From Gammaproteobacteria bacterium (GTDB lineage: Bacteria; Pseudomonadota; Gammaproteobacteria; JAABTG01), in NCBI GenBank assembly GCA_034522055.1, contig JAXHLS010000006.1, positions 1,088,790 through 1,152,789 of the forward strand: a DNA stretch of 64,000 nucleotides, written 5' to 3'. Made by a program: the position numbers and the translations under genes. The notes beneath the pieces are model-generated. The model saw only the letters and a program-made list of their open reading frames with translations. It was not told where the DNA came from and searched no databases. Shown here one piece after another: positions 38,221 to 61,297 of this stretch; the stretch's first letter is position 1, and each line of letters starts with the position of its first letter.

Positions 38221-38784
38221 ATGGGCGATGAACTGTTTGCCGATCCACGATTGTACGACCACTTGCTTCGGCTTGACCGCGATTTATGTGAGCGGGCACG
38301 ACGCGCAGGCTGCCCTCAGTGTGCCGGCGTCCTGCACAGTGCCACCTATCAGCGCAAGCCACGCGGGATTCCACCGGGCTCTACCGATGCATTGCACACC
38401 CGTCGCCTGAGCTTGTGCTGCGCCCGTTGCCGCCAGCGGGTGACACCGCCTTCGGTGCGTTTCCTCGGACGCCGGGTATACACCGGCGCTGTGCTGGTAC
38501 TGGCCTGCGTACGCACACTCACCGCTGCGCGGATTCGCGAGCTGCAGGCGCTGTTGGGGGTAGACCGGCGTACGCTGCGGCGCTGGTGCCGTTGGTGGCG
38601 TGAGTCCCTGGTGCGCTCGCCCTGGTGGCGTGCAGCGCGGACGCGCTTCCTGCCGCCGCTTGAGGACCAGCAACTGCCGGGTGCCCTGCTTGCGCGCTTC
38701 GAGGAACCGGATCCGCTGCGCAGGATGGCCGAGGTGTTGGCATTTCTCGCGCCGCTGTCCGTCGCCGCCGGGCACGTTGGCTGA
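38221..38784 (+). CDS. Zinc-ribbon/HTH protein of the transposon
   Basis: This 187-residue, arginine-rich protein has a four-cysteine zinc ribbon (CPQC at about residues 28-31 and CARC near 64-67) followed by a helix-turn-helix-like segment [24 protein letters not shown]. It is the first of four co-directional genes. Domain make-up suggests a DNA-binding accessory factor in end or target recognition. A different zinc-ribbon protein has the same place in the IS21-like element at 60836. Confidence 0.7.
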
Positions 38785-38877
38785 GGGGGATCGCGCACCC
38801 GCAGAAGTTGCACCTTCCATAACCTGTGCCAAGGCACTTAGCCTCACAAGACGGACCGATGACGAGGCGATGTACCG

Positions 38878-40356
38878 ATGGGCGACGACAACAGATTGAG
38901 CGCGCACGAACGCTGGGCACGGCTGCGCTTCGCCGTGATCGGTTCGCTATTGGCGGCACCGCCAGAGAGCGGTGAGCTGCACACAGCCATTACGGCGCTG
39001 GCCGCCAGGACCTGGCGTCATCCGGTCACTGGCGAGGCGGTACGCTTCGGGTTCTCCACCATAGAGCGCTGGTACTACCTGGCGCTTCGTGCCGGCGCTG
39101 ACCCAGTCCGTGCGCTGCGTTCACGCCGACGCGCCGATGCGGGACGTCACCGCCGCCTGAGTGACCTGCTGCGCACCGAGCTGCATGCGCTCTACCAAGC
39201 GCATTCGGGCTGGAGCGTGCAGCTGCATGTCGATAACCTTGCAGTTCTGGCTGCCAAGGATCCGTCTCTTGGCGCGATGCCCTCGTATGCCACCGTGCGG
39301 CGGTATCTACAGGCGAACGGCATGCGCAAGCGCAGCGGGCGCGTGCGGCGCGATACCCCCGGTACTGAAGCCGCCGAGCGCCACCTGGCCACGCGCGAGG
39401 TGCGCAGCTATGAACTCGCCCACGTCAATGCGTTATGGCACGCCGACTTCCACGTCGGCTCGCGTCGTGTCGTCGACACGCGCGGGCGCTGGCAAACGGT
39501 ACAGATGCTCGGCATTCTCGATGACTGCTCAAGGATCTGTTGTCACGCCCAGTGGTATCTCACCGAGGACGCCGAACGCTTCGTGCACGGCCTGTCGCAG
39601 GCGCTGCAGAAGCGCGGCCTGCCCCGTGCCCTGCTGACCGACAACGGCAGTGCCGAGACCGCGACCGAGGTCACCGAGGGCCTGGCGCGCCTGGGGATCG
39701 TGCATGAGACGACATTGCCGTACTCGGCCTACCAGAATGCCAAGCAGGAGAACTGGTGGTCGGTCGTTGAGGGTCGCCTGCTCGCCATGCTCGAGGGCGT
39801 CGAGCAGCTGACACTGGAGAGTCTCAACCGCGCAACACTCGCCTGGGTCGAGGGCGAGTATCAGCGTCGCCGCCACCACGAGCTCGGCTGCGCGCCCATT
39901 GAGCGCTATCGGCAGGGCCCCGACGTTGCCCGCGAGTGCCCCGATGCCGAGATGCTACGCCGCAGCTTCCGCGCACAGACCACGCGTGTCCAGCGTCGCT
40001 CCGATGGCACCTGCACCGTACTGGGCACCCGCTTCGAGGTGCCCTCGCGGTTCCGCCACCTCCACCGGTTGCAGCTGCGCTACGCACGCTGGGATCTTGC
40101 GAGTATTGATCTGCTCGATCCCCACACCGAACAGCCCGTCGCCGTGCTCTATCCACTCGACAAGCAGCGTAATGCCGAGCATGGACGACGGGCCCTCGCG
40201 CCGGTGGATGACAGCACGTCGGTCGATGCCCTGCCGGCCAACGCTAACACGCGCGCCGGTATGGCGCCGTTGCTTGACCAACTCATGGCCGAGTATGCCG
40301 CCACCGGCATACCGCCGGCCTATCTGCCCTTCGATCCCGAGGATACTGACCCATGA
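38878..40356 (+). CDS. Rve-type DDE transposase
   Basis: This 492-residue protein has an N-terminal DNA-binding region with a helix-turn-helix (GFSTIERWYYLALR), then an integrase core with Asp190 (NALWHADFHVG), Asp255 (ALLTDNGS) and Glu291 (NAKQENWW), giving the D,D-35-E spacing. A C-terminal beta-rich domain follows (GTRFEVPSRFRHLHRLQLRYARWD). Its 3' end overlaps the ATPase gene by four bases. It probably cuts and joins the transposon ends. Confidence 0.92.
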   Translation: MGDDNRLSAHERWARLRFAVIGSLLAAPPESGELHTAITALAARTWRHPVTGEAVRFGFSTIERWYYLALRAGADPVRALRSRRRADAGRHRRLSDLLRTELHALYQAHSGWSVQLHVDNLAVLAAKDPSLGAMPSYATVRRYLQANGMRKRSGRVRRDTPGTEAAERHLATREVRSYELAHVNALWHADFHVGSRRVVDTRGRWQTVQMLGILDDCSRICCHAQWYLTEDAERFVHGLSQALQKRGLPRALLTDNGSAETATEVTEGLARLGIVHETTLPYSAYQNAKQENWWSVVEGRLLAMLEGVEQLTLESLNRATLAWVEGEYQRRRHHELGCAPIERYRQGPDVARECPDAEMLRRSFRAQTTRVQRRSDGTCTVLGTRFEVPSRFRHLHRLQLRYARWDLASIDLLDPHTEQPVAVLYPLDKQRNAEHGRRALAPVDDSTSVDALPANANTRAGMAPLLDQLMAEYAATGIPPAYLPFDPEDTDP

Positions 40357-59293: not shown

Positions 59294-60819
59294 TGGGGCT
59301 CCTCCTGGGCGTCGTCTTCGGTTTCGGGCGGGGTGGACTGCAAGGCGTCGTAGCCGCCCAGATCATGGGTGCGTACCACCAGCCCCCTGGCGCGCGCGTG
59401 GTCGATGCGCACTCCCACCCGGGGCGGCTGGTTTCTCGCCTCGCGCCTCCGCTGCAGGGCGATGCGCACGCCGTTGGGGTGAGCGACCCCGTGGGCCAGG
59501 CTCTCCTGGATGGCCGCTTCCAGCTCGGGGGCGCCGTAGGCATCGAGGAGGCGCAGCAGGGCGGCGGTGATGGCGCCGAGGTTGTCGCCACGCTCAGCGG
59601 CCTGTATGAGTAACTGCCGGCTGGCCGGTGCGGCCTGGGCCAGGTGGTCCTGGCCGCGATGATGCCGGGCCTGGCGTTTGATCTGGACCAGTGCCTCGAT
59701 GTGTTCCGGCTGTTCGATCTGCCGGCCCTTGTCGTAGCTGCGCGGGTGGCGGGCGATGACATCTCCGCCGTCGAGGATCCGCACCTCGGTGGGTGAGGCC
59801 GAGACGGTGAGGGTGCGCCGCACATGGGTGTGGGGCACGCTGTAGTCGTTGCCCTCGAAGCGCGCGTAAGGGGTCTTGCCGATGTGGACCTCGACCCGCT
59901 CGTCGGTGGGATAGGGGTTATCGGGCAGCGCCAGCAGGGGCTCCTGCTCGAAGGCCTGGCGCACCGAGAGGGCACGGTCCTCCGGGCAGGGCCGGTCCAT
60001 GGCCCAGCCGTTGCACCAGGCCTCGGCCTGGGCATTGAGGTCATCGATGTCGGTCCATTGGCGGGCCGGCCAGAAATTATCGCGTATCGTGCGGATGGCG
60101 CGTTCCACCCGCCCCTTCTCGTTGCCCCGGGCCACCGCCACCGGACGGGGCTCGAAGCGGTAGTGGGCGGCGAACTCGAGCAAGGTGGGATGGAAGCGGA
60201 TGGCCTCACCCTGGCGCTCCAGCACGGCGCTTTTGAGGTTGTCGTAGAGCAGGACCTTGGGCAGGCCGTTCCAGGCAGTGAAGGCCGCCTCATGGCCCCG
60301 CAGGAAGTTGGCCATCTTGGCATCGAGGAAGAAGCGCAAAAAAATGCGCCGGGAGTAGCTGAGCACCATGACAAAGGCCATCAGGGCATGGGTTGCGCGG
60401 CCGATGGTGAGCTTGCCGAAATGGCCCCAGTCGATCTGTCCCTGGTCGCCGGGCAGGGTCTTCAGGCGCAGAAAGGCCTCGGGCCGGGGGCGTGGCCGGT
60501 AACAGGCGAGCTGATGGCGGAAGTGGTCGGGGCCGCCGGGGTAGCCCCGTTCACGCACCATGCCGTAGAGGCGGCTGGCGGTGAGCGTGGGGAACTGCGC
60601 CAGGGTGTCGGTGATGAACGGCAGATAAGGATCGATCATCGACGGCTGCGCAGCCCGCTCGACCTTCGGCATGCCGGCCTGGGAAAGCACCCGATTGACG
60701 ACGTTGTGGTGTACGCCCAACTGGCTGGCAATGGTGCCCACCCGCCACTTCTCGACGTAGTGATAGCGCAGGATCTGCGCCTCTTGTTCTTTGCTGATGG
60801 CCAATGCGTTTCTCCTCAT
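59290..60819 (-). CDS. istA: IS21-family transposase IstA
   Basis: The 509 residues have an N-terminal HTH ([21 protein letters not shown]), an Rve core with Asp130 (GQIDWGHF), Asp193 (LLYDNLKS) and Glu239 ([11 protein letters not shown]), and a C-terminal beta domain ([14 protein letters not shown]). The ATG at 60819 ([12 protein letters not shown]) is preferred over an upstream frame extension. It is intact. Confidence 0.93.
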
Positions 60820-60835
60820 CTCGTGGCCGGCCGGC

Positions 60836-61297
60836 TCAAGGGGGCTGAGCCCGGGCGCCTGGTGGCCCCTGTCGGGTGACTGTTCCAAGCGCAGCAGCGG
60901 CGGTGGCGCGATGAAGCGGGCCGGTACGCAGGAAAGGTCCGCACTCACGGCCGCAGAAGTGGCAGCGAATGGGCGCCATCATCGGCGCGCCATCCGCACC
61001 GCGGCGGCCAGCCGGCCTCGCCGGAACGGGGGGTAGTGGATCATGAGGGGGCGGGGCCGGGGAACCCTGATGCGTCACTTTCTGCCTTCTCGCCCGGTAG
61101 CGGCGTTGCCGCTCGGCATGCTTGTGCCGGCCCTGGCGGCTCTGCTGGTAGCGCCAGCCGGCGGCCCGCAGAGACGCGCTTCGTGCCGCCTGCGCACACC
61201 CCTCAGGGCAATAGATGTTGCCGCGGTCACAGCCACTGCAAATCATCACCTGACGATGACAACGGGCGCAGTTGTACAGGCGTGCAGGGTTCTCCAT
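60836..61297 (-). CDS. Zinc-ribbon protein upstream of istA
   Basis: The 153-residue basic protein has Cys clusters [20 protein letters not shown] and IYCPEGC, an Arg-rich helix [18 protein letters not shown], and a last pair in RCHFCGREC. It is 16 bases upstream of istA in the same direction, so it is probably part of the element. Standard IS21 elements do not carry it. It takes the same place as the zinc-ribbon gene of the transposon at 38221, although the two proteins are not obviously homologous. Confidence 0.65.

Follow-up and report, generated by a model that had tools for sequence, protein, structure and literature searches.

Why do two otherwise unlike transposons carry related small acidic proteins behind their ATPase genes? 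The question is raised by a stretch of 64,000 nucleotides (the window) from a Gammaproteobacteria bacterium (assembly GCA_034522055.1, contig JAXHLS010000006.1, positions 1,088,790 to 1,152,789 of the forward strand), which contains a Tn6049-like transposon on the plus strand (element 1, positions 37625 to 41584) and an IS21-like transposon on the minus strand (element 2, positions 58209 to 61571). IS21, Tn7, Mu, and CRISPR-associated transposons all depend on AAA+ helpers, and the passage of the finished strand-transfer complex to host replication and repair is a long-standing question. An earlier note on this DNA proposed that the small proteins represent a general accessory subunit of AAA+-assisted transposition, for example an ATPase regulator or a target-immunity factor. 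The position of the family, the purifying selection that acts on it, the exchange of its partner ATPases, and a recurrent C-terminal tip make it probable, in our judgment, that the small protein serves the ATPase as an accessory subunit and suggest, more weakly, that it recruits host proteins in the manner of the tip of the single-stranded DNA-binding protein (SSB).

Both small open reading frames (ORFs) reported in the earlier note are present. The ORF of element 1 (positions 41289 to 41486, plus strand) encodes 65 residues with a net charge of -9, and that of element 2 (58347 to 58523, minus strand) encodes 58 residues with a net charge of -11. The former starts 90 nucleotides past the stop codon of the ATPase gene (40353 to 41198, plus strand), and its product terminates in ...QLELPFADVAQF; the latter starts 2 nucleotides past the stop codon of the IstB gene (58526 to 59293, minus strand), and its product ends in ...EVDDDDLIF. 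As had been claimed, the ATPases belong to different families: that of element 1 is ExeA/GspA-like and matches Pfam AAA_22 (expectation value, E, of 3e-22), whereas that of element 2 matches Pfam IstB_IS21 (7e-60) and, over the cut-off, NCBIfam IS21_help_AAA (NF038214). Direct comparison of the zinc-ribbon, transposase, and ATPase pairs of the two elements gave nothing better than an E value of 0.24. The statement that the transposases are likewise of different families holds to that extent, yet both belong to the wide rve/DDE superfamily.

The small proteins are related to each other, with 14 identities in 36 positions (39%; BLASTP E of 1e-9 in a single comparison), as the earlier note had reported. 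Searched against the host genome in six frames, the element 1 protein matched, besides its own copies, solely copies of the element 2 gene (E of 1.5e-4 to 5.8e-4, and 0.05 for a broken copy); the element 2 protein, searched against the same 5.1-Mb genome, matched only element 1 copies apart from its own (E of about 1e-4). Chance or composition alone could be invoked for two proteins that are short and acidic, but this explanation is scarcely credible, given that the whole-genome searches are reciprocal. In addition, the small protein of the transposon Tn6049 shares 65% identity over 55 residues with an IS21 protein from Aromatoleum but 31% over 36 residues with that of element 1. Between the element 1 protein and an IS21 protein from Methylotuvimicrobium, the identity is 41% over 54 residues. 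A chance likeness is already refuted because such intermediate sequences link the proteins.

A scan of species genomes returned 176 relatives; every locus among the best 80, which encode 53 distinct proteins, was inspected, and a script chose as the start of each small gene the codon closest to the ATPase stop, giving preference to ATG. Among the best 80 of these 176 loci, 75 lie behind a transposition ATPase (68 IstB and 7 ExeA-like), so that a check for relatives residing mostly away from such ATPases did not refute the proposal. In 73 of the 75, a 4-base overlap joins the start codon of the small gene to the stop codon of the ATPase gene. Zinc protein, transposase, ATPase, and small protein follow one another in this order at 61 of the 75 loci, and at 59 of the 66 for which 2.9 kb or more of upstream sequence is available. 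The exceptions among the 80 are two loci that begin at a contig edge (L120 and L195), one that retains only the tail of IstB (L127), and a pair in Gallionella discussed below. Plasmid records were searched by tblastn at E up to 1 with the two window proteins and up to 0.1 with the Tn6049 protein; 52 records were matched by the element 2 protein, 3 by the element 1 protein, and 34 by the Tn6049 protein, and at 11 of 13 places inspected an ATPase gene (annotated "istB," "AAA family ATPase," or "ATP-binding protein") lies directly upstream. At a locus of Cupriavidus sp. EM10 (L244), an IS21-type element separates the ATPase from the small gene. An Undibacterium plasmid (L099, 3388 to 5189) carries three small genes, the first two behind an ATPase; the matched copy is the last and is without an ATPase of its own. 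Family members are acidic and about 55 to 90 residues long (median net charge of -7 over 85 distinct proteins).

The window proteins and their close relatives are referred to here as group A; a second group, group B, was noticed through position alone and then confirmed by profile. The host genome contains a second Tn6049-like family (about 3.4 kb), with a transposase 54% identical to that of element 1, that gave no match to the first profile. It has a 62-residue ORF one base past the ATPase stop, and two relatives elsewhere also have such an ORF. A group B profile of six proteins (A4) aligned with group A in hhalign at E values of 2.6e-6 (probability 89) and 3.6e-5 (probability 71), so that a profile-profile comparison, too, upheld the relationship. 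Searched against 274 genomes, this profile had matches in 8. At E < 1e-4 it reached ten places beyond its own members and their copies: six in the host, where they are copies of a third element family, and one apiece in four other genomes. All ten lie behind an ATPase, an IstB in two cases (L249 and L250). A search of 398 genomes of the phylum gave one convincing addition, L265 (E of 3e-8), which overlaps the end of an ExeA-like ATPase frame. The group A profile matches the ORF of the third family in six of six copies (E of 0.0016), and the group B profile matches the same ORF, which on sequence similarity is a bridge joining the two groups. Plasmid searches at E up to 1 with group B proteins as queries returned 1, 2, 0, and 1 records, and two weak plasmid matches (E of 0.3 and 0.04) lie directly behind an ATP-binding protein gene. 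In Cupriavidus gilardii, one Tn6049-like element (L144, 4.7 to 5.2 kb) carries group B and group A genes in tandem behind one ATPase. Judged by these comparisons, the small proteins are one undescribed family with two divergent groups.

The host genome also permits a census from the side of the ATPase. The element 1 ATPase has 21 matches there, and 17 of these are ExeA-like ATPases of transposons. They represent three families with 6, 5, and 6 almost identical copies; the element of the third family is complete, measures 3.4 kb, and has terminal repeats as well as short duplications. A small gene of group A or B lies within the 1.5-kb flank of all 17. The remaining four matches (25 to 49% identical, two of them fragments) are without one.

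Twelve weak profile hits were left out of the argument: L105, L106, and L107 (E of 0.003 to 0.009), L084 (0.009), L252 (0.0035), which is not behind an ATPase, and the seven weak group B matches among the 398 phylum genomes, L266 to L272 (0.0018 to 0.0084), of which the two inspected, L266 and L268, are not beside a transposition ATPase. L082 (E of 0.001) was a candidate member that a better profile did not confirm, and L081 (E of 7e-6) is located at a contig edge.

For a tree of the small proteins, entries without an ATPase and L123, L242, and L081 were dropped, and the remaining 78 were thinned to 56. The partner ATPase family switches five times on this tree, with at least four switches forced by well-supported branches, and a history with one change was found in 0% of 200 bootstrap trees. 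Because the partner changes repeatedly, the small gene is a swappable module; either it or the remainder of the element has been exchanged. The median ratio of nonsynonymous to synonymous substitution rates (dN/dS) was 0.235 over 28 non-independent pairs of equal-length genes (70-residue group A proteins, >72% identical, dS between 0 and 2), with one close pair above 1, which indicates that the small gene is under purifying selection. AlphaFold2, run on 44 aligned sequences, predicts a single long helix for the element 2 protein (residues 12 to 55), with a predicted local distance difference test score of about 95 in residues 11 to 40, falling to 56 at the end, and a predicted template modeling score of 0.52. 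Conservation is focused in the helical core and in the last four residues.

Between these conserved parts lies a stretch variable in length and sequence, after which an ending of the form acidic-x-P-F recurs (DPPF, DLPF, DEIPF, DEMPF). A terminal F is present in 62 of 85 distinct proteins (3.3 in shuffles) and a terminal PF in 38 of 85 (0.27 in shuffles); of the 20 clusters formed at 60% identity, 12 have F as their usual last residue. When L123, L195, L244, L081, and L242 were dropped and the set was thinned to 43 proteins at <75% identity, 30 of the 43 ended in F (25 of 33 in group A and 5 of 10 in group B) and 20 in PF, and position -4 was acidic in 70%. Of 617 mechanically collected background ORFs, 14 had a terminal F and 1 a terminal PF. 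A further peptide, Q-x-x-L-P-F/L within the last 25 residues, occurs in 9 of 85 distinct proteins, compared with 0.5 in shuffles; such QLxLPF-like peptides resemble the clamp-binding motif.

The terminal pattern is reminiscent of SSB, whose acidic C-terminal tip (MDFDDDIPF in E. coli) is described in the accessible part of PMC7913777 as the docking site of many interacting proteins. Like SSB, many of the small proteins have an acidic tail (modeled at low confidence) that ends in D/E-x-P-F at a free C terminus; unlike SSB, they have no SSB domain, and a Pfam scan of ten small proteins gave no SSB (OB-fold) match and no TniQ match. Among SSB frames of the relatives, 27 of 29 that were read end in D/E-I/V-P-F. 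The frame of the host's best SSB match (L263) contains DDFDDDIPF and then runs on for 37 further residues without a stop, which reflects either a sequencing error or a truly masked tip. The tail of the small proteins points to recruitment of replication or repair proteins rather than to the ATPase regulation or target immunity that the earlier note had suggested.

We propose that the small protein is made in step with the ATPase and acts as its accessory subunit, with the helical core held by the ATPase or the transpososome. The flexible acidic tail ending in Phe might further work like the C-terminal tip of SSB, attracting to the strand-transfer product host proteins that bind this tip (PriA, RecO, RecG, or the chi subunit), so that the product could be repaired or replicated. 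Some members may use the clamp-binding-like peptide (QLxLPF) instead. A bolder version, in which a portable subunit with an SSB-tip mimic (or, in some members, the clamp-binding-like peptide) is common to different AAA+ families and hands product or target choice to host replication restart and repair, is conceivable, although we would lean against it.

Several observations weigh against the proposed role or narrow it. None of 16 IstB-type loci from other branches matches either profile (IstB 27 to 53% identical; 11 pass the family cut-off, 3 fall short of it, and 2 are on viral contigs), and the ORFs downstream of IstB at these loci bear no resemblance to the family; the group B gene at L250 belongs to an IS21 element of such a distant branch. 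Scans of viral contigs (viral_contigs) found 0 relatives with two ExeA-type ATPases as queries and 2 loci with IstB, neither with a small gene. Matches at E <= 0.01 occurred in 6 of 229, 8 of 398, 8 of 274, and 9 of 398 genomes, counts that include the host genome and weak chance matches and come from overlapping samples. Some branches thus have the small gene regularly and others lack it. The gene is not universal, and of the idea of a general accessory subunit the second half is supported while "general" has to be limited. The 17-of-17 census in the host amounts to three independent cases because the copies fall into three element families. Two Gallionella assemblies share a locus (L155 and L156, near 5000, with the same flanks) that has the small gene and no ATPase, possibly a remnant of a deleted element or a domesticated copy. 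The tree rests on 76 columns and has long branches, and ATPase type is strongly clustered on it (5 changes, compared with 12.8 in shuffles), so exchange must be occasional. The lone-helix model is uninformative as to fold and gives no functional lead. As for the tip, 57 of the 85 distinct proteins share a single cluster at 60% identity, which leaves many tips without independence; a terminal F is missing from 13 of the 43 thinned proteins; the element 1 protein ends in VAQF, lacking P and having few acidic residues; the usual ending is DPSS in the second family and DLWD in the third; and the commonest tip is DPPF, with P usually third from the end, whereas SSB has DIPF, with I or V at that place. 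Finally, the accessible part of PMC11208146 describes in vitro transposition with IstA and IstB; this fits a small protein that would be concerned not with the chemistry but with how target or product is handled inside the cell.

An acidic protein translated in step with an ATPase might instead be a negative regulator, mimicking DNA or capping the ATPase oligomer and so limiting transposition or conferring target immunity; the earlier note had proposed regulation or immunity. The median charge of the family and the coupling of its translation to that of the ATPase, which fits a stoichiometric partner, are what this idea would lead one to expect; a DNA mimic, however, needs no fixed C-terminal P-F tip, whereas here the last four residues are conserved along with the helical core, and high copy numbers in the host genome do not suggest tight repression. 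We consider such a regulator rather unlikely. A different adaptor, docking on the sliding clamp through the QLxLPF-like peptide near its end instead of on SSB-tip binders through its tip, is a slimmer prospect: the peptide is well above expectation and occurs in both groups (in element 1 and in the second family), but it is missing from 76 of the 85 proteins, and its nine carriers come from about four lineages.

The small gene could also have no part in transposition at all and be a hitch-hiker, that is, a passenger, an addiction antitoxin, or a relic of translational coupling. Its small size, the lack of any known domain found in it, and the IS21 branches that manage without it are compatible with this, yet a passenger is not expected to hold one fixed place behind one gene, and the same slot behind two ATPase families, the repeated exchange, the full occupancy in the host, and the low dN/dS make a hitch-hiker very improbable.

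Both small genes sit within intact, multi-copy transposons with target duplications. The limits given by the earlier note (37626 to 41583 for element 1 and 58347 to 61297 for element 2) were mended by comparison with other copies in the host genome to those given above. Element 1 is flanked on either side by a 6-bp target duplication, CCGCTT, and has imperfect terminal repeats, TGAGTCTAAACA and TGAGTGTAAGCA; duplications were found in four of four complete copies read, one being 7 bp. Its small gene has 7 near-identical copies in the host genome (6 behind an intact ATPase and 1 on a fragment). The four-part order described in the earlier note is present in both elements, but element 1 has five parts because a minus-strand SEC-C/TPR protein gene (37714 to 38262, start codon uncertain) also lies inside it. 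This gene, outside the shared layout and between the left end and the zinc-protein gene, is either a passenger or a fifth element gene. It is followed by a zinc-ribbon/helix-turn-helix protein (38221 to 38784, plus strand; scanned against family libraries without its first residue), with a homolog in Tn6049 and relatives, and an rve (IS481-like) DDE transposase (38878 to 40356, plus strand; Pfam rve 5e-11, and NCBIfam IS481 4e-28, under that model's cut-off). To the left of element 1, two overlapping 255-bp stretches (36914 to 37236), 95% identical and offset by 68 bases, form a short tandem repeat.

This order of zinc protein, IS481-like transposase, GspA/ExeA-like ATPase, and small ORF is that of Tn6049. 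Plasmid records of Tn6049 show the same gene order, with zinc protein, transposase, and ATPase homologous to those of element 1 and a group A small gene, labeled "hypothetical protein," behind the ATPase. According to the accessible parts of PMC2864759 and PMC4739549, the ATPase gene of Tn6049 of Cupriavidus metallidurans is gspA, and the latter identifies the pHS87a copy as Tn6049; in neither do these parts mention the small gene. The Tn6049 terminal repeats given in the available text of PMC4739549, TGTGCATAAGCA, are similar but not identical to those of element 1, which is therefore a relative of Tn6049 and not Tn6049 itself. According to PMC3414803, protein clusters of Tn6049-related transposons are given in its supplementary Table S5, and the small ORF may be among them.

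Element 2 has the features of an IS21 element: terminal inverted repeats beginning with TG (TGTTAGCGG.. and TGTAGATGG..) and a short target duplication (5 bp, GCCGG), with duplications of at least 5 bases at the other copies listed. Its IstA-type DDE transposase (59290 to 60948, minus strand, start uncertain) matches NCBIfam IS21 (NF033546) at 1e-70; this protein and the IstB, in that order, match IS21 models over their cut-offs, and in the PDB the IstB finds the ATPase of IS5376 (E of 5e-40). IS21 classically has two genes only. Element 2 is a sub-branch of IS21 because it adds the small protein and a cysteine-rich, zinc-ribbon-like protein (60836 to 61297, minus strand; weak XF1762 match, below the cut-off), the gene for which is kept upstream of istA in relatives. 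The accessible part of the IS5376/IS21 account (PMC11208146) mentions no small factor. The element 2 small gene has 18 full copies and 1 broken copy in the host genome; at another IS21 copy (L010/L069, C2:1925418), the small gene and the IstB match lie in open frames of equal length (338 residues), apparently an IstB-small protein fusion through a frame change. Element 2 starts within the final codons of an ISKra4-family transposase ORF (56690 to 58225), so the nesting order of the insertions can be read. Directly adjoining it is a 431-residue ORF (61593 to 62888), which we take to resemble a group II intron reverse transcriptase/maturase; a copy of positions 61629 to 63050, 99.4% identical, adjoins another IS21 copy (L071).

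Tn7-like TniQ and TnsD are target selectors, and MuB and TnsC are helpers; like them, the small proteins would be accessory proteins of a transposition system that act with, or as in MuB and TnsC constitute, its AAA+ ATPase. They differ in lacking a TniQ match and in size and predicted fold. MuB and TnsC are discussed in the accessible part of PMC11208146. Ten small proteins compared with Pfam and NCBIfam, and two with PHROGs, gave no match above the cut-off (best E of 0.001); in a PDB profile search with group A, the best hit (E of 0.18) was taken as chance. Tn6049 and IS21 are known, but a small family shared by both was not found in the family libraries or in searches of one open-access library of papers, and it is apparently new. 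If the bolder version given above is true, the family would be a common host-coupling module of ATPase-assisted transposition. A small protein that stays put while the neighboring ATPase family is swapped points to a common function, which its easily deleted gene and four-residue tip make accessible to experiment. The small protein may also be of use in assembling fuller ATPase-assisted insertion systems in the laboratory.

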